Assembly (NCBI GenBank): GCA_021791615.1
Contig: JAJYWG010000116.1
Location: 1-13,079, forward strand
Length of the DNA: 13,079 nucleotides
Reading direction: 5' to 3'
Origin: Actinomycetes bacterium
Lineage (GTDB): Bacteria > Actinomycetota > Acidimicrobiia > Acidimicrobiales > RAAP-2
Below, piece after piece: positions 2,359 through 12,692 of this stretch; within the stretch, counting starts at the first letter, position 1; the number at the start of each line of letters is the position of its first letter. A program made the position numbers and the translations under genes. The notes beneath the pieces are model-generated. The model made no database searches and had not been told where the DNA came from. It worked only from the letters and a program-made list of their open reading frames with translations.

Positions 2359-2652
2359 GTGGACTGGCGCAAGCGGGCCGACTACGTCCGCGCACGCCAT
2401 GGCGTCGACCCAAGGTGGGCCGACGAGGCGGTGAACGAGGACCATGCGGTCTGGCTCACGCCGGATCCGGCGAGCCGGAGCGGCCCGTCGGTGCGGGTGA
2501 TCGGCTATTCGGCGAGCGCCCGCGACATCCTCGTCGTCATCTTGGTCGCCGCCGATGTCGACGAGACGGAGCAACCTGCCGGGGAGTGGTGGGGCGCCAA
2601 CGCCTGGGTCGCAAGCCCACGGGATCGGCGGCTCTACGCAGAGGGGGACTGA
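2359..2652 (+). CDS. BrnT-like toxin of a type II toxin-antitoxin pair
   Basis: A 97-residue protein resembling the BrnT/RelE-fold ribonuclease toxins. It has the KHGV-like RARHGVDPRWADEAV at residues 11-25, a DPDPASRSG-type turn, a central strand RVIGYSASARDILVVILV (46-63), and the closing ANAWVASPRDRRLYAEG, which resembles the ISAR.A...ERR.YE ending of BrnT. The start is a GTG at 2359; no strong ribosome binding site is seen, and an AT-rich patch (2331-2356) just upstream is the likely promoter area. It ends one base into the start codon of the ribbon-helix-helix partner. Toxin-first order is typical of brnTA. The function as an mRNA interferase is inferred from family resemblance only; divergence from classical BrnT is clear, so another small toxin family remains possible. 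Confidence 0.65.
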   Translation: MDWRKRADYVRARHGVDPRWADEAVNEDHAVWLTPDPASRSGPSVRVIGYSASARDILVVILVAADVDETEQPAGEWWGANAWVASPRDRRLYAEGD

Positions 2653-3017
2653 TGAGCAAGAAGATCGACGACGTGCTGGCCGAAGAGGGGGCAGCGGCAG
2701 AGAACTACGACATCGAAGACACCGTGCCCGAGGGTGTCGCGGTCACGAGGCCCAACCTCGGCCGAGCCACCGTGGTGTCTGTCCGGTTGTCTGGTGACGA
2801 GCATGCCCGGTTGCAGCGGGCCGCCGAGAAGGCGAACCTGCCCGTCTCCACGCTGATCCGCATCTGGGCGCTCGATCGGCTTCGCGCCGAGGAGGAGGGG
2901 AGCCAGTCAAGCGTGGCGGAGCGCCTCCGTCGGCTCGAGCAGGCCGTGTTCCAGCGCTCCGCGTGGAGCGGGTCGACAACGAAGGTACCGCCGCACTCGT
3001 CGCCCGCGTCGCGGTAG
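2652..3017 (+). CDS. Ribbon-helix-helix antitoxin (BrnA/CopG-like)
   Basis: A 121-residue protein starting at the ATG 2652-2654, which shares one base with the toxin stop codon, behind the purine-rich ribosome binding site GAGGGGG (2641-2647). Residues 1-36 are acidic and probably disordered, fitting a toxin-neutralising segment. Residues 39-80 are a ribbon-helix-helix: strand ATVVSVRLS, helix DEHARLQRAAEKAN, then LPVSTLIRIWALDRLRAE. A short coiled-coil segment follows (88-100). In the better-known brnTA pairs the RHH part is also in the second gene. The last 20 residues (SAWSGSTT... to the end) are low-complexity and may be a replaced tail. Predicted role: binds the toxin encoded upstream and represses the operon. 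Confidence 0.72.
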   Translation: MSKKIDDVLAEEGAAAENYDIEDTVPEGVAVTRPNLGRATVVSVRLSGDEHARLQRAAEKANLPVSTLIRIWALDRLRAEEEGSQSSVAERLRRLEQAVFQRSAWSGSTTKVPPHSSPASR

Positions 3018-3080: not shown

Positions 3081-3122
3081 CGTTCTCCCGCTACTGCGGG
3101 GCGTTCTCCCGCTACTGCGGGG
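3081..3122. repeat. 21-bp tandem duplication at the 3' end of the DinB-like gene, each copy with a small hairpin
   Basis: Two identical 21-bp units lie at 3081-3101 and 3102-3122. Read on the minus strand each contains CCCGC-AGTA-GCGGG, a 5-bp stem with a 4-nt loop. The DinB-like stop codon TAG lies in the loop of the first unit read on that strand, and the second unit repeats it downstream. The hairpins could act as a weak transcript end between converging genes (this operon and the RHH antitoxin), but no T-run follows. Confidence 0.8.
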
Positions 3123-3654
3123 CGTCCTCGCCGACCAATCCGTCGATCGACTCGCGGATCAAGTCGGCATGTCCGGTGTGGCGGGCATACTCCTCGATCA
3201 GGTCTATGAGCATCCGGCGCAGGTTGGGTCTCTCGGCCCAGTCGGAGATCGCGAGCGGTTGGTCGAGGTCGCTCTTGGCGAGGGCCTCGTCGAGAGCTTC
3301 TTCCGAGCGTGCGACTGCATCGAGCCACAGTCTGCGCAGCCCCTCGGGGGAGTCCTCGACAGCTGAGGTCCACTCCCAGTCGTGGTTGCCCGCTGCGGGC
3401 GCCCACACGGCTGGGTAGTCGCCACCGAGGAGCTGATGGGTGAAGTAGTGGTCCTCGACGAGGGCGAGGTGCTTGATCAGCCCGGCGAGGGTCAGCCTGG
3501 ACGGCCCGAGGGTTCGGTGCATCGCGTCGGCGTCGAGGCCGCCGGTCTTCCAGGCGAAGGTGCGCCGGTTGCGGTCCAGCGCGCCGCGCAGAGCCTCGGT
3601 CTCGTCCGGGGCGGCGGGGAAAGGACGTGGCGAGCGTTCCTCAGGCGCGGTCAT
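3112..3654 (-). CDS. DinB-like (DUF664) four-helix-bundle protein
   Basis: A 180-residue protein starting at the ATG 3654, which overlaps the upstream acetyltransferase stop (ATGA). It has the DinB/YfiT-like fold pattern: helix 1 with TEALRGALDRNRRTFAWKTG (residues 19-38), then LAGLIKHLALVEDHYF with the first metal histidine H62, and the C-terminal EEYARHTGHADLIRESIDG with H159 and H162. These three histidines fit the usual metal-binding triad. Family members include thiol (mycothiol or bacillithiol)-dependent transferases; which reaction this one performs cannot be told. It is the last gene of a three-gene operon with an alpha/beta hydrolase and a GNAT protein. The last residues and stop codon lie in a tandemly duplicated sequence. 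Confidence 0.88.
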   Translation of the reverse strand: MTAPEERSPRPFPAAPDETEALRGALDRNRRTFAWKTGGLDADAMHRTLGPSRLTLAGLIKHLALVEDHYFTHQLLGGDYPAVWAPAAGNHDWEWTSAVEDSPEGLRRLWLDAVARSEEALDEALAKSDLDQPLAISDWAERPNLRRMLIDLIEEYARHTGHADLIRESIDGLVGEDAPQ

Positions 3655-4268
3655 GCCGCTGCGACCTCCTTGCTCACGATCCAGGCGTGCTTGCCGACCT
3701 GGCGTCCACGGATGAAGCCGTACTGCTCGAACAGCTCGACGGTCGCGCTGAAGAGGAACCTGCTCTGCGCGTCGCGCCCGGCTGCGGTCTCGGACGTGGC
3801 TTCGACCAGCCCACCTCCGGCGGCGGCAATCTGGGCCAGCGCACCCTCCAATGCGGCGCGAGCGATCCCTTGGCCGCGGTGGCGCTTGTCGACGAAGATG
3901 CAGGTGATCCGCCAACGCGCCCGCGGCGGCGGGTCCTTGCGGTACTCACGGGCGTGCTTCAAGTCGAGCTCGTCGGGGGTGCCGTACTGGCACCAGCCCT
4001 GCGCACGGTCTTCGGCGTCGAAGACCAGCGCGGCGTGGGCGCGACCGGCCCGGACGAGCTGTTCTTTCAAGCTGCGCGGGTCGCTGAGGCCGCGCTGGTA
4101 GCACGAGTGGAAGGCGATGCACCAGCATCCGCCGTAGATCCCGTTGTTGCGCTCGACCAGCTCCGCGAACGCCTCCCAGGTGGATGCGTCGAGGGACCGG
4201 ATCGTGCAGGACGAGGGACCCGACGCTTTCGTTGTCGGTCTGCGGTCAGTCATGCTGCGGTCAGTCAT
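3651..4268 (-). CDS. GNAT-family N-acetyltransferase
   Basis: A 205-residue protein with a GNAT acetyl-CoA site: the strand ARWRITCIFVDKRHRGQGIA (residues 117-136) holds the R/Q-x-x-G-x-G/A pyrophosphate loop as KRHRGQGIA, followed by helix RAALEGALAQIAA. The end, LFEQYGFIRGRQVGKHAWIVSKEV, is the usual YGF...W closing strand. The N-terminal part has NNGIYGGCWCIAFH (41-54), a Cys/Trp-rich patch seen in a GNAT subgroup I cannot name precisely. The substrate is unknown. Two starts are possible, ATG 4268 and ATG 4253, created by a 15-bp duplication; the first overlaps the hydrolase stop by 8 bases. It overlaps the DinB-like gene by 4 bases at its end. Confidence 0.88.
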   Translation of the reverse strand: MTDRSMTDRRPTTKASGPSSCTIRSLDASTWEAFAELVERNNGIYGGCWCIAFHSCYQRGLSDPRSLKEQLVRAGRAHAALVFDAEDRAQGWCQYGTPDELDLKHAREYRKDPPPRARWRITCIFVDKRHRGQGIARAALEGALAQIAAAGGGLVEATSETAAGRDAQSRFLFSATVELFEQYGFIRGRQVGKHAWIVSKEVAAA

Positions 4269-6178: not shown

Positions 6179-6594
6179 ATGTTGACCATCGGAGAGTTCG
6201 CTCGCCTCGGGCAGGTGTCGCCTCGCATGCTGCGCCACTCCGACCGGGTCGAGGATGCTGAGGATGCGTCGGGCGCAGATCGAGCAGTCGGTCGTAGAGG
6301 AGCAGGAGCGGCTGCGTCGAGTCGAAGGGCACCTCCGACCGCTGGAATGGCGCGACACCATGAGCTTGCAGGACATCGTGAGCAAGCAGACGAACGGCTC
6401 GGGTTCGCGCACCTCGGCGAACTACGGATCCCCGACGGACCGCCGTTCTGCCCGATGCGACGGCCGCCGGCATCGACTTAGCCGAGCTCGGGGTCTCCTC
6501 CTACGGGACGTCGGAGCGACAGGTCGGCTCCAACTTCAACAAGTCGCCGCGTCACAAGCCGATCCCTATCCGGTACTTCGGTTGTCAGCGGTGA
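6179..6594 (+). pseudogene. Decayed MerR-family regulator (GyrI-like effector domain)
   Basis: Pieces of one MerR protein are spread over three frames. Frame of 6179: MLTIGEFARLGQVSPRMLRH, the HTH start, with the usual RHYD changed to RHSD. Then about 40 residues, including the rest of the HTH and wing, are missing. From 6255 another frame gives RRAQIEQSVVEEQERLRRVE, the dimerisation coiled coil. Around 6400-6460 the first frame returns with FAHLGELRIPDGPPFCP, resembling the GPPF motif of GyrI-like effector domains. A third frame runs from about 6445 to the TGA at 6592-6594 (DATAAGIDLAELGVSSYGTS and on); I cannot place that part with confidence. No continuous product is possible. The promoter upstream looks intact. 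The tail overlaps the convergent MazF-like gene. Confidence 0.7.
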
Positions 6595-6919
6595 GCCAGA
6601 GGGTCAGCTGCCCGATGACCTTGTTCAAGGTGTCGTCGGTGGCCGTGCTGATCTCACGCTCGAAGCGCTGCGTTGATACCGCTCGGACGGCCTCGCACAT
6701 GGCCCAGCTGGCGCGGTTGAGCCCACCGTCGTCTACAACGCGTACGTGGTGTGGGAACCCGCGTTCCCGGGTGGTCAAGGGCACCACGATGGCCTGTCGG
6801 ATCGCCAGCGCGTTGTAACGATCGCCGGAGATCACGAGACACGGCCGGAAGCCGCGTTGCTCATTGGCCACCGTGGGGTCCAGCGTGGCCAACCAGATGT
6901 GGCCCTGTTGCACCCTCAC
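6566..6919 (-). CDS. MazF/PemK-like mRNA interferase toxin
   Basis: A 117-residue type II toxin. GHIWLATLDPTVANEQRGFRP (from residue 6) is the N-terminal strand and loop with the conserved R25-P, followed by CLVISGDRYNA and AIVVPLTT (residues 43-50). The Arg and Thr in these motifs (R25, T49 or T50) correspond to the catalytic pair of MazF. WAMCEAVRAVSTQRF (72-86) is the usual late strand segment. Predicted to cleave single-stranded RNA at short motifs. I chose GTG 6919, which overlaps the antitoxin stop as GTGA; an in-frame GTG at 6913 is an alternative preceded by GGTGAGG. The 3' end runs into the decayed MerR gene of the opposite strand. Confidence 0.85.
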   Translation of the reverse strand: MRVQQGHIWLATLDPTVANEQRGFRPCLVISGDRYNALAIRQAIVVPLTTRERGFPHHVRVVDDGGLNRASWAMCEAVRAVSTQRFEREISTATDDTLNKVIGQLTLWLTADNRSTG

Positions 6920-7188
6920 CCGTTGTACTCCGGCCACTCCTCTGCGGCAGAATTGTCCGGCTCGCCAGCGGTGACCTCGGCCAGCTCGGCGATGTACTCG
7001 CTCCATGCGTCCGGGTCATCGCGCTGCATGCGCTGGTGGGCGGCCTCGATCTCCGACCACTGCTGTTCGATCTCCAAGCGACGCGATTCCTGCTCCAAGA
7101 GAGCGCCCATCGTGGTGCCTCGTGCTCGGGCGATCCGAGCCAGCCGGTCACGGACCGCAGAATCAACCTTGATCGTGGTCACGGACAT
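6916..7188 (-). CDS. MazE-like ribbon-helix-helix antitoxin
   Basis: A 90-residue partner of the downstream toxin. Residues 1-35 (SVTTIKVDSAVRDRLARIAR, then ARGTTMGALLEQES) form a ribbon-helix-helix DNA-binding unit. Residues 36-60 continue as a charged helix, and the acidic C-terminus (DAWSEYIAELAEV... EEWPEYNG) is a typical toxin-binding tail. It lies first in the operon, overlapping the toxin by 4 bases with the GTG 6919 start. The ATG at 7188 follows a -10 hexamer by 7 nt, so the mRNA is probably leaderless. It is expected to repress its own promoter together with the toxin. Confidence 0.83.
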   Translation of the reverse strand: MSVTTIKVDSAVRDRLARIARARGTTMGALLEQESRRLEIEQQWSEIEAAHQRMQRDDPDAWSEYIAELAEVTAGEPDNSAAEEWPEYNG

Positions 7189-8322: not shown

Positions 8323-8832
8323 TCAACGGGGAGAAACGCCTCTGGCGGAGTTGTTCGCGTCGCGAGCGGAGGCGGCTGGAGCGGCCGGCCGTTCGTCGGA
8401 AAGGAGGTAGCGGGGTCCCGTGCCTAGGGTGGCGGCTGCGTCGTCGGGGTTGTAAAGCTTGCAAGATCGAAGTGAAAGGCAACCGCACCCTATGCAAGAG
8501 GAGAGTTCGTCGCGTAGGCGCTCCAGCACTGCGATCTGTTCGTCGAGCCGAGGACGCCACGCAGACGAGAGCCGAGCCCAGTCGGCCTTGGTGGGGGTGC
8601 GTGACTCGGGCAGGGTGGCCAACGCCGACCGGATCTCTTCCAAACTGAGGCCCACCTTCTGTGCTACCCGGATGAAGGCGATGCGGCGTAGCGTGATCCG
8701 CGCGTACCGCCGTTGGGAACCGGTGGTGCGGCTGCTCACGATCAATCCTTGCGCCTCGTAGAAGCGCAGGGCCGAATGTGAGAGGCCGGTTCGGGCCGCC
8801 ACTTCCCCGATGCTGAGCAGTGCTTCGGGCAT
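8323..8832 (-). CDS. soxR: Redox-sensing MerR-family activator SoxR
   Basis: A 169-residue MerR-family protein. Residues 6-45 are the HTH and wing (LLSIGEVAARTGLSHSALRF, YEAQGLIVSSRTTGSQRRY), 50-75 the second helical part, 95-112 the dimerisation helix. The [2Fe-2S] cluster motif CIGCGCLSLRSC supplies C113, C116, C118 and C124, the same C-x2-C-x-C-x5-C spacing as E. coli SoxR (C119, C122, C124, C130). The protein should be oxidised by redox-cycling compounds or superoxide and then activate promoters with 19-bp spacers. The tail after residue 145 (ERPAAPAASARDANNS...) is an extra low-complexity extension. It is divergent from the split transketolase, with two SoxR boxes in the 145-bp gap. No clear ribosome binding site precedes the ATG. 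Confidence 0.93.
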   Translation of the reverse strand: MPEALLSIGEVAARTGLSHSALRFYEAQGLIVSSRTTGSQRRYARITLRRIAFIRVAQKVGLSLEEIRSALATLPESRTPTKADWARLSSAWRPRLDEQIAVLERLRDELSSCIGCGCLSLRSCKLYNPDDAAATLGTGPRYLLSDERPAAPAASARDANNSARGVSPR

Positions 8833-8863
8833 GAGCGAAGCGTAGCGCCGGCGGGCACATTGA

Positions 8864-8881
8864 CCTCGAGTTAGCTTGAGG
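8864..8881. promoter_or_regulatory. SoxR box 1 (proximal to soxR)
   Basis: CCTCGAGTTAGCTTGAGG matches the known SoxR site of the E. coli soxS promoter (CCTCAAGTTAACTTGAGG) at 16 of 18 positions. On the plus strand it carries a TTGACC -35 (8860-8865) but no -10 at the 19-bp distance (CGGCGG). On the minus strand the corresponding -35/-10 (GCTGCC/ATGTGC) is weak. It is centred 40 bp upstream of the soxR start codon, so autoregulation of soxR is the likeliest role. Confidence 0.8.
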
Positions 8882-8938
8882 CAGCGGCGGGGGGCGGTGT
8901 CGTGGCTGACGTCGCCAGGCGACTGAAGGCGAAAGCTC

Positions 8939-8969
8939 TTGACCTCAAGCGAACTTTAGGTAGTACACC
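8939..8969 (+). promoter_or_regulatory. SoxR box 2 and SoxR-type promoter of the transketolase operon
   Basis: TTGACC (-35, 8939-8944), a 19-bp spacer, and TACACC (-10, 8964-8969) form a MerR/SoxR-type promoter. Within it CCTCAAGCGAACTTTAGG (8943-8960) matches the SoxR consensus at 15 of 18 positions and sits between the elements exactly as in soxS. The ATG of the transketolase gene follows 8 nt after the -10, so the transcript has little or no leader. Confidence 0.75.
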
Positions 8970-8977
8970 TTCATCTT

Positions 8978-9733
8978 ATGGATGTCTTCAAGGCCACGAA
9001 CCCACCTGCTATTCCTGCCCCGCTCCCAGATCCCGGACAGCTCCAGCGTCTCCTCACCTTGCTGACCGGAGACGAGAAGCACGAGCCTGCAGCGCTCTCG
9101 ACGCTCGACGTCCTCTGGGTGCTGTACACCAGGGTCCTACGCATCGACCCGGCGTCGCCAGGCGACCCCGACCGAGACCGCTTCGTGCTCTCCAAGGGAC
9201 ATGGACCAGCCGCCTACTACGCGGTGCTCGCCGCGTGCGGATTCCTCGACGAGGCGCTCCTTTCCACTTTCGGACGGTGGCAGTCCCCGCTCGGATGCCA
9301 TCCTGATCGGCTTCGGATCCCCGGCGTCGAGGTTTCTTCCGGGTCACTCGGCCACGGTCTGCCCATCGCCGTCGGGATGGCCCTCTCCCTGCGGGCCCAG
9401 CGCCACCACGAGCCCCGCGTCGTGTGCCTGCTCGGGGACGGCGAGTGCGAGGAGGGCTCGGTGCACGAGGCCGCTGCCCTCGCCGGACGCGAGCGCCTCG
9501 GCGCGCTCACCGCGGTGGTCGTCGACAACCATTCCACCAGTCTCGGCTGGCCCGGCGGCATCGGATCGCGCTTCAGTGTCGAGGGATGGGAGACCTGCAC
9601 CGTCGACGGTCGTGACCGCGCCGCGCTCGAAGCGGCACTCTCCGTGCGCCGCGAGGGTGACCCCCGCGGCGGTACCCCCCGGCTGGTCGTCGCGGACATC
9701 GAAGCGGGTGTCCCGGAGCGAGCTGCGGCATGA
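8978..9733 (+). CDS. Split transketolase, N-terminal (ThDP pyrimidine/pyrophosphate) subunit
   Basis: A 251-residue subunit carrying the diphosphate-binding half of transketolase. SKGHGPAAY (residues 72-80) holds the conserved His; SSGSLGHGLPIAVGMAL (120-135) is the family signature with a second conserved His. GDGECEEG (153-160) to N184 is the ThDP/Mg2+ motif (GDG, about 30 residues, N). The protein is slightly shorter than usual N-terminal subunits (about 270-280). The ATG at 8978 lies directly behind a SoxR-type promoter; no ribosome binding site, so probably leaderless. Its stop overlaps the next start as ATGA, giving equimolar subunits. With the partner it should transfer two-carbon ketol units in the non-oxidative pentose phosphate pathway. 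A specialised sugar substrate or a DXS-like activity cannot be excluded. Confidence 0.9.
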   Translation: MDVFKATNPPAIPAPLPDPGQLQRLLTLLTGDEKHEPAALSTLDVLWVLYTRVLRIDPASPGDPDRDRFVLSKGHGPAAYYAVLAACGFLDEALLSTFGRWQSPLGCHPDRLRIPGVEVSSGSLGHGLPIAVGMALSLRAQRHHEPRVVCLLGDGECEEGSVHEAAALAGRERLGALTAVVVDNHSTSLGWPGGIGSRFSVEGWETCTVDGRDRAALEAALSVRREGDPRGGTPRLVVADIEAGVPERAAA

Positions 9734-10662
9734 CCACCATGCGCGAGCGGTTCGTGAAAGTGGCCTCCGAAGCCCTCGAGAGCAACCAGCGCGTGGCCGT
9801 CGTGCTCGCGGGAATCTCGGTCGACGCGTTCGGTCCCGCCAAGGCTCGCCATCCGGACCGGGTGCTGAACGTCGGCATCCGCGAGCAGGCGATGATCGGC
9901 GTCGCGGCGGGGCTCGCTCTCGAGGGCATGCGGCCGGTGGTCCATACCTTTGCCCCCTTCCTCGTGGAGCGGCCCTTCGAGTCTTTGAAGATCGACCTCG
10001 CGCACCAAGGGCTCGGGGCGGTGCTCGTGAGCATCGGCGCCTCCCACGACGTTCCCGCCTACGGACGCACGCACGAGTGCCCCGAGGACGTCGCGCTTCT
10101 CGACACTCTTCGTGCCTGGACGGTGCACGTGCCGGGCCATCCCGAGGAGGCCGCGACGCACCTGCGCGCTGCGCTCGCCCACGAGGGCCTCGTCTACCTG
10201 CGTCTGAGCGAGGCGAGCAACCGAGCGCCGGTCGCGGCCGGGCCGGCTATGACGGTGCTGCGCCGCGGCGCGCGGGGCACCGTCGTCGCGGTCGGTCCCA
10301 TGCTCGACGCGGTCTTTGAGGCGGTGGAGGACCTGGACGTCACCGTCCTCTACGCCACGACGGTGCGTCCGTTCGACGCCACCACGCTACGTGCCACGCT
10401 CAGCGAGCCCGCCGTCGTCGTGGTCGAGCCGTACCTCGCAGCGACCTCCTTGCCGAACGTCAGCCGGGCCCTCTGCGATATCGCACATCGCAGCTGCGGC
10501 CTGGGGGTCGGTGAAGCGGACGGCGGCGTCGATCTGCATCGCTACGGCACCCGGGCAGAGCACGACGCCGCGCACGGTCTCGATCCCGAAGGCCTGCGCG
10601 CCCGGATCACCCGCTTCCTCGACGGGACTCCTGATGGTTCCCGCGACGACAACTCGGCCTGA
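9730..10662 (+). CDS. Split transketolase, C-terminal (pyrimidine-binding) subunit
   Basis: A 310-residue partner subunit. The ThDP-activating glutamate is E52 in RVLNVGIREQAMIGVAAGLA (44-63). HTFAPFLVERPFESLKIDL (72-90) forms the aminopyrimidine pocket, and YGRTHECPEDVALL (111-124) is the substrate-loop signature with the conserved H-x-x-x-E-D. The C-terminal transketolase domain (about 190-300) follows (TVVAVGPMLDAV, TVLYATTVRPFD, AVVVVEPYLAATS). The start overlaps the N-terminal subunit gene by 4 bases. Length is in the normal range for such subunits. No separate promoter is seen, so expression depends on the SoxR-type promoter upstream. Confidence 0.9.
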   Translation: MTTMRERFVKVASEALESNQRVAVVLAGISVDAFGPAKARHPDRVLNVGIREQAMIGVAAGLALEGMRPVVHTFAPFLVERPFESLKIDLAHQGLGAVLVSIGASHDVPAYGRTHECPEDVALLDTLRAWTVHVPGHPEEAATHLRAALAHEGLVYLRLSEASNRAPVAAGPAMTVLRRGARGTVVAVGPMLDAVFEAVEDLDVTVLYATTVRPFDATTLRATLSEPAVVVVEPYLAATSLPNVSRALCDIAHRSCGLGVGEADGGVDLHRYGTRAEHDAAHGLDPEGLRARITRFLDGTPDGSRDDNSA

Positions 10663-10840: not shown

Positions 10841-11173
10841 ATGACCCAGCTCTACGACACCACCCTGCCCCAAAACCGCGCCAAGCTCGAGGCTGTCGAA
10901 GCACTGGCCAAGCTTGCCGAGCAGGCCGGGCTGAGCCTGATCCAGCTCGCGCTCGGCTTCGTGACCGCTCACCGCGCAGTGACGAGCTCGCTGCTCGGCC
11001 CGCGCACCCTCGAGCACCTGGGCTCCCAGCTCGCCGCCGCCGACACCGTGCTGGGCGCGGAGGTGCTCGACGAGATCGACGCCATCGTCGCCCCCGGCCT
11101 CGACCTCGCCCCGGCCGAGAAGAACGACACCCCACCCGCCGTGCTCGACCCTGCCCTGCGGCGTCGTCGATGA
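10841..11173 (+). pseudogene. Aldo-keto reductase, C-terminal fragment
   Basis: About 110 residues correspond to the last third of an aldo-keto reductase: LPQNRAKLEAVEALAKLAEQ, SLIQLALGFVTAHRAVTSSL, LGPRTLEHLGSQLAAADTVL, LDEIDAIVAPG and the end DPALRRRR. LGPRT-x-E-x-L is the NADPH adenosine-phosphate binding segment. The N-terminal two thirds, including the catalytic Asp-Tyr-Lys-His tetrad, are absent; 10663-10840 shows no trace of them in any frame. It cannot be an active reductase. Its stop still overlaps the LLM start as ATGA, so the two were an operon before decay. Confidence 0.8.
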
Positions 11174-11881: not shown

Positions 11882-12095
11882 CGCTAGCTGGTCCTGACGT
11901 TGTGGTCGACCCGGCATCCACGAGAACCTACGAAAGCGAGCGAGCTGATGCAGAGCGCACGGGACGCATCCTGGGAGCCTCCGCGTCACGTCGCTAGGAG
12001 GTGGTCGGGCTCCTCATCGTCGGGATGCCCCCAGCTGTTCTCCTTCTGTCAGTATGGCCGCCGCGAACCGATCGGGGCGCTGCGGGCGAATACAA

Positions 12096-12692
12096 GTGAT
12101 GACGCTGAGTGACGAGGAAGTAGTCGAAAGGTCTTTGGGTGATCCGGGCCTGTTTGGGCTGGTGTTTGATCGACACTTCAACGCGATCGCCCAGTTCTGC
12201 ATTCGCCGTGTCGGTGGCGTCCAGGGAGAGGACCTGGCCGGTGACGTCTTCGTTTGGGCGTTTGCGAACCGCCATCGCTTCGACCCCGAGCGAGGCGCTG
12301 TTCGGTCGTGGCTCTTCCGCGTCGCCAACAACGAAGTCCGACACGCACTACGCAGCGCAGGTCGCCAGAGCCTGGCCTATGTGCGCTGGTCAGTAGGCGT
12401 TGAACGACAGGGAAGCGACCTCGCAAATGAGGTCGCTTCGGATGTCGATGCCGAGAAGGATCTCTCTGTGGTCGCCGCGGTCCTCGATCTTCGACCGATC
12501 GAGGAAGTCGAGACGCTGCTGCTGTTTGCTTGGGAGGAGCTGTCGTATGTGGAGATCGCGGAAGTGCTCGCGATCCCGGTCGGCACCGTGCGCTCCCGCA
12601 TCAATCGGATTCGTCATCACCTGCGCGACGTCCTCGACGATGGCCTCGTGCAGCCGGAACGTCCATTACGTCTGCTAGGAGGTCTGCAATGA
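12096..12692 (+). CDS. ECF-type RNA polymerase sigma factor
   Basis: A sigma-70 family protein of about 197 residues (numbered from ATG 12099). Region 2 is at residues 20-88: VFDRHFNAIAQFCIRRVG, EDLAGDVFVWAFANRHRFD and WLFRVANNEVRHALRS, which open and bind the -10 element. Region 4 is at about 125-178: VETLLLFAWEELSYVEIAEV and LAIPVGTVRSRINRIRHHL, a helix-turn-helix for the -35 element. Regions 1 and 3 are lacking, as in ECF factors. Start choice: GTG 12096 and ATG 12099 are adjacent; an upstream ATG at 12054 adds a non-conserved stretch and is less likely. No clear ribosome binding site is seen. It overlaps the downstream membrane protein gene as ATGA, the normal arrangement for a sigma/anti-sigma pair. 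Confidence 0.9.
   Translation: MMTLSDEEVVERSLGDPGLFGLVFDRHFNAIAQFCIRRVGGVQGEDLAGDVFVWAFANRHRFDPERGAVRSWLFRVANNEVRHALRSAGRQSLAYVRWSVGVERQGSDLANEVASDVDAEKDLSVVAAVLDLRPIEEVETLLLFAWEELSYVEIAEVLAIPVGTVRSRINRIRHHLRDVLDDGLVQPERPLRLLGGLQ

Follow-up and report, generated by a model that had tools for sequence, protein, structure and literature searches.

A split, transketolase-like thiamine diphosphate enzyme under probable SoxR control in Actinomycetota

Introduction

In E. coli, soxR lies divergent from its target soxS, with a SoxR box in the gap between the two genes. Oxidised [2Fe-2S] SoxR distorts promoter DNA and starts transcription. The current view of non-enteric SoxR is that it protects against redox-active secondary metabolites, or processes them, with a few pumps and redox enzymes as its targets. 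The regulon of Streptomyces coelicolor and relatives, according to Naseer 2014 (PMC4146615), is governed by direct action of SoxR on few genes via a promoter box, as is predicted for the locus presented here. Among split transketolases, ChTK-F of Carboxydothermus hydrogenoformans (6yak, 6yaj) is described in PMC7661550 as the product of two genes, a PP-domain chain and a Pyr/C-terminal chain with no linker, and the enzyme presented here has the same arrangement. Split N and C subunits also make up FasB/FasC, encoded in the cytokinin fas operon on plasmid pFiD188 of Rhodococcus fascians.

We analysed a stretch of 13,079 nucleotides (hereafter the window; contig JAJYWG010000116.1 of an Actinomycetes bacterium of the order Acidimicrobiales) in which soxR adjoins two genes for a split transketolase-like enzyme.

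Organisation of the soxR-tktN-tktC locus

The divergent genes soxR and tktN are separated by an intergenic gap of 145 bp (8833-8977; Table 1). The soxR product scored 209.9 bits against TIGR01950 (equivalog cut-off 116.9), matched the E. coli SoxR structure 2zhg (E=2.9e-42) and has the complete [2Fe-2S] cluster motif CIGCGCLSLRSC (C-x2-C-x-C-x5-C), which bears out the earlier note's identification of a SoxR with an intact cluster motif. The four-cysteine motif was present in all 27 SoxR proteins encoded near tkt genes of this split-transketolase family, the window protein counted. Judged by its sequence, the protein is a putative redox-dependent transcription activator.

Table 1. Features of the soxR-tktN-tktC locus (positions in the window)
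Feature	Position	Strand	Description
soxR	8323-8832	-	169 aa, MerR-family [2Fe-2S] redox-sensing activator; TIGR01950 match and cluster motif
SoxR box 1, CCTCGAGTTAGCTTGAGG	8864-8881	+	differs from the E. coli-type consensus CCTCAAGTTAACTTGAGG at 2 positions; soxR-proximal
tktN-tktC promoter, MerR/SoxR-type	8939-8969	+	TTGACC 8939-8944, 19-bp spacer, TACACC 8964-8969
SoxR box 2, CCTCAAGCGAACTTTAGG	8943-8960	+	3 mismatches to CCTCAAGTTAACTTGAGG; within the tktN promoter spacer
tktN	8978-9733	+	251 aa, diphosphate (TPP)-binding subunit of split enzyme; PF00456 match
tktC	9730-10662	+	310 aa, pyrimidine-binding and C-terminal domain subunit; Transket_pyr match

The two near-consensus boxes that had been reported in the gap were the only sites in the whole window within 3 mismatches of CCTCAAGTTAACTTGAGG, and none arose in 200 shuffles. 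A two-gene transketolase directly behind the second box had likewise been noted, and box 2 indeed sits inside the 19-bp promoter spacer just upstream of tktN. The tktN ATG (8978) lies 8 bp past TACACC, so that the tktN-tktC mRNA, whose start site is deduced from the promoter, is probably leaderless or nearly so. The region of box 1 also contains TTGACC (8860-8865), but a search of the + strand downstream of it found no -10 element; box 1 is therefore not an equivalent second promoter, and autoregulation or service as an auxiliary operator is its candidate role. Relatives carry the box in the same place as box 2, the layout TTGAC-19-xANNNT was also found across them, and the box-to-start distance was 14-15 nt at many other box-bearing genes in a strict-box genome scan.

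The frames of tktN and tktC share 4 bases (ATGA). The tktN product matched Transketolase_N (PF00456) with 100.6 bits (cut-off 22); that of tktC matched Transket_pyr with 92.8 bits (cut-off 27) and Transketolase_C with 23.8 bits, slightly below the cut-off of 25.9. Together with the TPP motif and the catalytic Glu411, the domain pair Transketolase_N and Transket_pyr that characterises transketolases is thus present. The closest solved chain to tktN was 6yak (split transketolase N, E=1.3e-39), which was also the top PDB fold match of its AlphaFold2 model (pLDDT 85.2). Scores stayed below the NCBIfam transketolase equivalog cut-offs (for tktN, 153.6 bits against 488 and 108.7 against 682.25; for tktC, 74 against 488), which a split enzyme would miss in any case because they are set for full-length chains, and below the likewise full-length cut-off of the DXS model (58.5 of 465.95 bits). 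DXS was the closest fold to tktC, so a pyruvate-type donor is possible. Fold similarity of the DXS type is, on its own, common to the whole superfamily.

Conservation of the pairing and of the SoxR box

A first sample comprised 80 loci from genome contigs, 63 with a tktN at least 50% identical to that of the window and 17 below 50%. Divergent adjacent soxR genes were found at 25 of the 80 loci, all in the more similar group (25/63 versus 0/17). A second sample held 53 loci with tktN identity of at least 50%, four of which repeat earlier genomes, and 10 loci below 50%. Adjacent soxR occurred at 20, the dyad at 38 and either at 42 of the 53, versus 0/10 for adjacent soxR and 1/10 for the dyad among the less similar loci. 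The soxR-tkt pairing recurs in many soil bacteria.

The family promoter set (n = 67) consisted of 63 genome loci, three plasmid loci and the window. A SoxR-type dyad, defined as TTGA-preceded with at least 6 of 9 pairs, was located just upstream in 58 of the 67 members, versus 0.30% of 17,751 background windows. Where the box was present and soxR not adjacent, SoxR passed the cut-off elsewhere in 13 of 14 searched genomes; the exception, L050 (Isoptericola), has a good box, yet its searched genome yielded no SoxR over the cut-off. Conversely, the genomes of L006 and L140 encode SoxR and no box was found at the copy examined, and L121 has the dyad and lacks SoxR. Of 31 hand-picked genomes, all 21 from the linked branch had SoxR and none of the 10 unlinked ones did; by a mechanical rule, box or adjacency and SoxR co-occurred at 19/21 versus 1/10 (Fisher p=2.5e-5). 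Judged across genomes, the box is a marker that tracks SoxR presence, with L050, L006 and L140 as exceptions; in the window the conserved box and soxR occur together. No link to SoxR was seen in part of the family (L056, L060, L119, L120 and L171-L177); SoxR is thus not required for the enzyme to work.

The strict-box scan returned 39 sites in 12 of 13 genomes, and the reversed control none. The 30 sites that were fetched include eight at tkt genes, eight at ABC transporters, five at zinc-type dehydrogenases (quinone-oxidoreductase-like), two at FMN reductases and two at ABM monooxygenases. The remark in the earlier note that a transketolase was not known to it as a direct SoxR target was nearly right; PMC4146615 predicts, in a footnote, a conserved SoxR site at SAV_1623, a 'putative transketolase' of S. 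avermitilis, and this is the only mention we found. We assume that SAV_1623 belongs to the window's split-enzyme family.

Instead of SoxR, a different regulator of the MerR type might use the boxes, or the only tie between soxR and tkt might be that they are carried together, with no SoxR control. Most sites depart from the perfect box, the sixth base is T (TTGACT instead of TTGACC) in 14/18 loci with adjacent soxR versus 3/25 others (dyads of at least 7 pairs), and the L050 box lacks a SoxR over the cut-off. We nevertheless consider this very improbable, given that the box occupies the 19-bp promoter spacer also where soxR is not adjacent, that box or adjacency and SoxR co-occur, that the same box marks genes of the SoxR-regulon type, and that the S. 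avermitilis site was predicted independently in PMC4146615. The proposal that SoxR directly controls a transketolase, for which conservation of pairing and boxes in relatives had been named as the check, withstood that check and is strongly supported by the comparison: pairing, box and 19-bp spacing recur, and the box tracks SoxR. From these sequence patterns, we conclude that SoxR very probably controls tktN-tktC.

Active-site residues and candidate chemistry

Residues were numbered as in E. coli transketolase (TktA), with 17 distant split transketolases as control. The TPP and donor residues H26, H66, H100, E411 and H473 are kept, as are D155 and N185 of the TPP motif; the invariant R5 of tktC may correspond to R358, and the S385 column could not be aligned reliably. 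On the acceptor side, the window tktC has G103 at H461, Y111 at D469 and E161 at R520. None of these three residues survives in any of 66 family members, whereas the distant split transketolases keep H461 in 7/17, D469 in 6/17 and R520 in 16/17. Position 261 is His in none of the 67 family rows (coverage is lacking there in L058 and L078) versus 17/17 in the distant set, and the window tktN ends ahead of the H261 loop, its TktA alignment stopping at residue 243. The window enzyme therefore lacks both the acceptor/phosphate residues and the His261 loop of transketolases, and a clean separation of the family from the distant set is seen only for R520 and the H261 loop.

These residues bear on whether SoxR simply turns on an oxidant-tolerant spare, i.e. 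an ordinary pentose-phosphate transketolase that, once the main enzyme is damaged by redox cyclers, maintains sugar-phosphate flux and the supply of NADPH and aromatic precursors. In E. coli, FumC stands in for fumarase A/B in an analogous manner, and E. coli transketolase is reportedly superoxide-sensitive (Benov and Fridovich 1999); this sensitivity would fit a spare, as would the transketolase domains and the donor and TPP residues. The absence of R520 and H261 from every family row able to show them argues against it, as does the loss of H461 and D469, although these two are also patchy in the distant set. A full-length transketolase was present in 23 of 24 relatives' genomes searched, which is compatible with a spare and shows no need for one. 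A spare is thus quite unlikely, and the role in pentose-phosphate recycling and NADPH supply, or in making a sugar phosphate, that the earlier note had envisaged is weakened by the missing residues and loop and by the retained full-length enzymes.

In a tree rooted with 10 distant split transketolases, FasB/FasC (L003) nest within a mostly SoxR-adjacent part of the family (support 99/98 for the group of 10 rows and 94/90 once Amycolatopsis is included), in the same clade of split TPP enzymes as the window enzyme. FasB has an N-terminal extension annotated as ferredoxin and adjoins a P450. Both this placement and the extension would suit a TPP enzyme with an electron-supplying role: a 2-oxo acid or ketose would be oxidised, and electrons handed singly from the TPP enediol to ferredoxin, a quinone or the redox cycler. 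The extension, however, is confined to FasB among the 21 rows compared, and the window tktN has neither the extension nor any ferredoxin domain match. FasB chemistry may moreover have shifted, since Ala replaces the H100 kept by the others, and published speculation on FasB/FasC favours DXS-like redundancy instead; we regard electron supply as unlikely. FasB/FasC, with the cytochrome P450 FasA alongside, are another pair for which electron supply could be proposed.

E. coli transketolase engineered at S385, D469 and R520 accepts aromatic aldehydes, according to PMC10787763 and PMC7661550. The latter also reports that ChTK, without engineered substitutions, still takes bulky aldehydes, so the residues alone do not define the acceptor.

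Proposed function

A SoxR-governed redox-response operon with a transketolase-like ketol transferase is our best overall explanation, held with moderate confidence. Its regulation is well supported by the sequence comparisons, and its chemistry is what we infer from residues and folds. Reduced SoxR would hold the overlong 19-bp-spacer promoter idle, as expected from SoxR biology and the promoter anatomy. A redox-cycling compound would oxidise the [2Fe-2S] cluster, the DNA would be distorted and the near-leaderless tktN-tktC mRNA would start. TktN and TktC would then combine as an alpha2beta2, split-transketolase-type enzyme that uses thiamine diphosphate. Because the donor half is transketolase-like, a ketose or hydroxypyruvate is expected to donate the C2 ketol unit; the acceptor half has little grip on phosphate, and the acceptor is therefore likely a non-phosphorylated aldehyde (or quinone). 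TPP ketol-type chemistry with a non-canonical acceptor is about as likely as not. The role of the enzyme would be to modify redox-active or reactive carbonyl compounds, with a transporter, quinone-reductase-like enzymes and monooxygenases as putative partners in relatives sharing the box. A redox-active or stress-derived carbonyl as the substrate is a tentative proposal, and no gene neighbour pointing to the substrate was recognised in the partly annotated clusters.

More speculatively, and with considerable doubt on our part, this widespread, unnamed two-subunit family could serve as the arm of the non-enteric SoxR response that makes carbon bonds. It would transfer C2 ketol units to redox-active molecules that are not phosphorylated and may be aromatic or quinonoid, thereby disarming or tailoring them; the plant-associated actinomycete R. 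fascians would have captured this stress enzyme, joined to a ferredoxin, as FasB/FasC for cytokinin synthesis. Should a C-C bond-forming thiamine enzyme prove to be a standard SoxR target in Actinomycetota and Chloroflexota, the SoxR response would extend to chemistry of which we found no report. Inducers and soxR mutants would then offer a regulatory handle on an enzyme family that includes FasB/FasC, and the family would provide a natural transketolase relative whose acceptor site is changed where biocatalysis groups mutate for aromatic aldehydes.

Comparison with known systems

ChTK-F is the top sequence match of both tktN and tktC and the top fold match of tktN, but the window tktN, at 251 aa versus 309 aa in ChTK-F, stops ahead of the H261 loop. 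The substitutions for aromatic specificity are reportedly all absent from ChTK, but the window enzyme differs at D469 and R520; the host of ChTK is described as having no full-length transketolase, and the available text of PMC7661550 mentions no SoxR link. FasB/FasC share with the window enzyme the absence of H461, D469 and R520; FasB differs by its ferredoxin-annotated extension and the Ala at H100, and the fetched stretch of the fas operon contained no SoxR box and no SoxR neighbour. DXS is one chain where the window enzyme is split, and the E. coli Dxs arginines aligned with H461 and R520 are absent from the family.

On the regulatory side, E. coli soxR-soxS has the same divergent layout with a box in the gap, but the target in the window is an enzyme operon and not a second regulator. 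ABC transporters, zinc-type dehydrogenases, FMN reductases and monooxygenases, found here downstream of the strict box (present in 12 of 13 genomes), are also classes named for S. coelicolor. The accessible text of PMC4146615 does not include divergent soxR-tkt pairs, the split enzyme or its residues; the tested six-gene regulon it describes is without a transketolase, unlike the SoxR-linked set found here.

SoxR and the promoter of the split enzyme

The SoxR encoded in the window scored 209.9 bits against an equivalog cut-off of 116.9 and carries the four-cysteine motif; among solved structures its best match is E. coli SoxR. Two SoxR boxes, differing from the 18-bp E. coli-type consensus at 2 and 3 positions, lie in the 145-bp soxR–tktN gap, and no box match occurred in 200 shuffles of the window. 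The earlier note had correctly seen a SoxR, two boxes and a two-gene transketolase-like pair. The 19-bp spacer around box 2 is overlong, which is typical of MerR-family target promoters, and since the tktN start codon lies 8 bp past TACACC, the tktN–tktC mRNA probably has little or no leader. Box 1, located 31 bp ahead of the soxR start, may have a role in soxR autoregulation; no −10 element was found after it on the forward strand. Elsewhere in the window, a MerR piece, apparently a remnant, and an aldo-keto reductase fragment suggest a decaying or rearranged stretch. The Mycothiol-S-transferase domain fits an actinobacterial origin.

Features of the window and of the FasB locus
Feature	Position	Strand	Remarks
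NikA-like protein	2592–3017	+	28.1 bits, cut-off 27
Mycothiol-S-transferase domain	3115–3915	−	118.8 bits
MerR regulator start	6179–6481	+	profile positions 1–18 of 38, under cut-off
PemK/MazF-like toxin gene	6566–7006	−	84.9 bits
Small ORF, candidate antitoxin	6916–7188	−	precedes and overlaps PemK/MazF-like gene; no Pfam match
soxR	8323–8832	−	back to back with tktN
tktN promoter	TTGACC 8939–8944, 19-bp spacer, TACACC 8964–8969	+	ATG 8 bp further; box 2 inside
tktN	8978–9733	+	first gene of two-gene enzyme
tktC	9730–10662	+	second gene of two-gene enzyme
Aldo-keto reductase C-terminal fragment	10841–11173	+	profile 219–290 of 291; just behind operon
Sigma-70 family factor	12054–12692	+	regions 2 and 4
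FasB	L003 5740–6654		nested in core family

Recurrence of the pairing and of the box

An alignment of tktN relatives (21 rows) served as query for a scan of genome contigs, and at least 594 candidates were confirmed. The SoxR and box search covered 84 loci (the best 80 of these genome matches, three plasmid loci and the window), of which 67 with a tktN at least 50% identical to that of the window (63 genome, three plasmid, the window) were termed core and the remaining 17 (<50%) far. The pairing and the boxes, checked for conservation in relatives, were present: among the best 80 of at least 594 matches, tktN has a divergent soxR as its direct neighbour in 25/63 core genome loci, as in the window, and in 0/17 far loci. 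At locus L058, SoxR lies about 2 kb from tktN. All 27 SoxR proteins near tkt, including those of the window and L058, have the four cysteines (loci from the same best 80 of at least 594). Members of the split transketolase-like family occur widely in Streptomyces and other mesophilic Actinomycetota.

Within 200 bp upstream of tktN, 58/67 core loci have a dyad behind TTGA in which 6 or more of the 9 pairs are complementary, versus 0.30% of 17,751 background windows taken from these loci on both strands; for 7 or more pairs the figures are 43/67 and 0.011% (genome loci from the best 80 of at least 594). Column counts over loci with at least 7 pairs gave TTGAC(C/T), the dyad and then xANNNT 19 bp past the −35 hexamer. 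The dyad is absent upstream of tktN at L003 (the FasB locus), L006, L056 and L060 and has only 5 pairs, under the threshold, at L004, L036, L045 and L021; the box of L052 sits behind TTGT, hence outside the rule. Variant half-sites CTTCAAG or GTTGAAG are commoner in loci with their own soxR (e.g. L008, L011, L061, L064), and loci without mostly have CCTCAAG-type half-sites.

Further tktN matches came from 14/198 genomes of the phylum of genome G014 (E-value limit 1e-40), 53/394 of its class (1e-52; loci given for 30 matches), 20/301 of the phylum of G027, titled Chloroflexota MAG (1e-52), and 5/198 in a further draw repeating G014-phylum genomes (1e-52). This second sample comprised 63 loci (L117–L179; 53 core, 10 far), with 25 class-of-G014 matches left out and four core loci (L117, L164, L174, L179) repeating first-set genomes. 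Allowing TTGA or TTGT in front of at least 6 pairs, the 53 core loci had an adjacent soxR in 20, a dyad in 38 and either in 42; the 10 far loci had no adjacent soxR and one dyad. Among the G027-phylum loci, soxR was adjacent in 11/20. The 11 core loci with neither comprise nine of low identity (50–57%; L119, L120, L171–L177), L132 (5 pairs, box-like) and L140 (no dyad). The phylum draw for G026 (locus L062), a MAG titled Acidobacteriota, returned the same genomes as that for an actinobacterial genome; the title is probably wrong.

Where a box occurs without adjacent soxR, a SoxR over the cut-off was encoded elsewhere in 13/14 genomes searched (L015 not included). L050 (Isoptericola) has a clear box, yet its genome sequence contains no SoxR over the cut-off, which may reflect either an incomplete assembly or another MerR regulator. 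Co-occurrence was assessed in 31 genomes hand-picked after their promoters were seen: 21 of the linked branch, out of 29 new ones in the G014 phylum and class draws, and 10 unlinked (nine core plus L178 with 48% identity; one of these, L121, does carry a dyad). SoxR was present in 21/21 versus 0/10 (p=2.3e-8 for this post hoc branch split); a mechanical rule (adjacent soxR or dyad of at least 6 pairs) gave 19/21 versus 1/10 (Fisher p=2.5e-5). Four genomes (G414, G440, G538, G570) encode two SoxRs each, one beside tkt and one elsewhere, and with the variant boxes at own-soxR loci separate specificities are possible. Anatomy, recurrence and co-occurrence make the earlier proposal of SoxR control over tktN–tktC a well supported prediction.

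A proposed change in the acceptor site

The nearest solved relative of both subunits by sequence is the split transketolase of Carboxydothermus hydrogenoformans. AlphaFold2 models of tktN (pLDDT 85.2) and tktC (pLDDT 90.0) matched the folds of that enzyme (6yak) and of DXS or split transketolase, respectively. Relative to E. coli TktA, the core family keeps H26 (63/66), H66 (66/66), H100 (65/66), E411 (65/65) and H473 (66/66). The H461 column holds G or A in 62/66 and H in 0/66, D469 and R520 are each kept in 0/66, and the N subunit stops before the H261 loop; hhalign supports the columns of H26, H66 and H100 and, on the C side, E411, H461, D469, H473 and R520. Seventeen distant split transketolases keep H261 in 17/17, R520 in 16/17, H461 in 7/17 and D469 in 6/17, so that H261 and R520 separate the core family from this set and H461 and D469 vary outside it too. 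Substitutions at S385, D469 and R520 make the acceptor site of E. coli transketolase accessible to aromatic aldehydes, and H100 affects the choice between hydroxypyruvate and pyruvate (PMC10787763, PMC7661550). From these kept and lost residues and the engineering data, our reading is that the donor half resembles that of a transketolase and that the acceptor half has been rebuilt. A full-length transketolase also occurs in 23/24 relatives' genomes searched (exception: that of L054), so housekeeping is covered. Given these losses and the second enzyme, the earlier idea that SoxR switches on pentose phosphate recycling is not well supported. What the sequence predicts is a SoxR regulon that includes a split thiamine enzyme whose acceptor site has changed.

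The tree, built from 65 core and 10 far N+C pairs, placed the core family in a single clade (support 100/100). Adjacency of soxR requires 13 changes on it and has therefore come and gone. FasB/FasC, described as of unknown function (PMC4092121), fell within a group (99/98) that is rich in Pseudonocardiaceae and in which soxR is mostly adjacent; their branch was marked as long. Only FasB has Ala at H100 among core rows and a ferredoxin-type N-terminal extension among the 21 tktN alignment rows; a change at H100 reportedly raises pyruvate use in other transketolases, and both features hint that FasB/FasC may use another donor or act oxidatively.

Genes sharing the box

The strict pattern TTGACCTCRASNNNNSTYGAGGT gave 39 sites in 12/13 actinobacterial genomes (0–5 per genome) and 0 in the reversed control; 10/39 lie at tkt by position. 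The 30 sites fetched precede tkt (8), an ABC transporter (8), a zinc-type dehydrogenase of quinone-oxidoreductase type (5), FMN reductase (2), ABM monooxygenase (2) and, once each, luciferase-like, erythromycin-esterase-like and DUF4440 proteins; the downstream gene was unreadable at two (L107, L116). Nine genes were assigned by Pfam, the others by shared N-termini or position.

The earlier note knew of no description of a transketolase as a direct SoxR target. A prediction, with no test, exists: Table 4 of PMC4146615 (footnote c) credits SAV_1623, a 'putative transketolase', with a conserved SoxR site. Beyond this footnote no mention of such a target was found among the papers listed, and the literature search found no other paper naming SAV_1623. 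The S. coelicolor SoxR regulon in that paper includes a transporter, a quinone oxidoreductase, a flavoprotein reductase and a monooxygenase, gene classes that also stand behind the strict boxes in 12/13 genomes.
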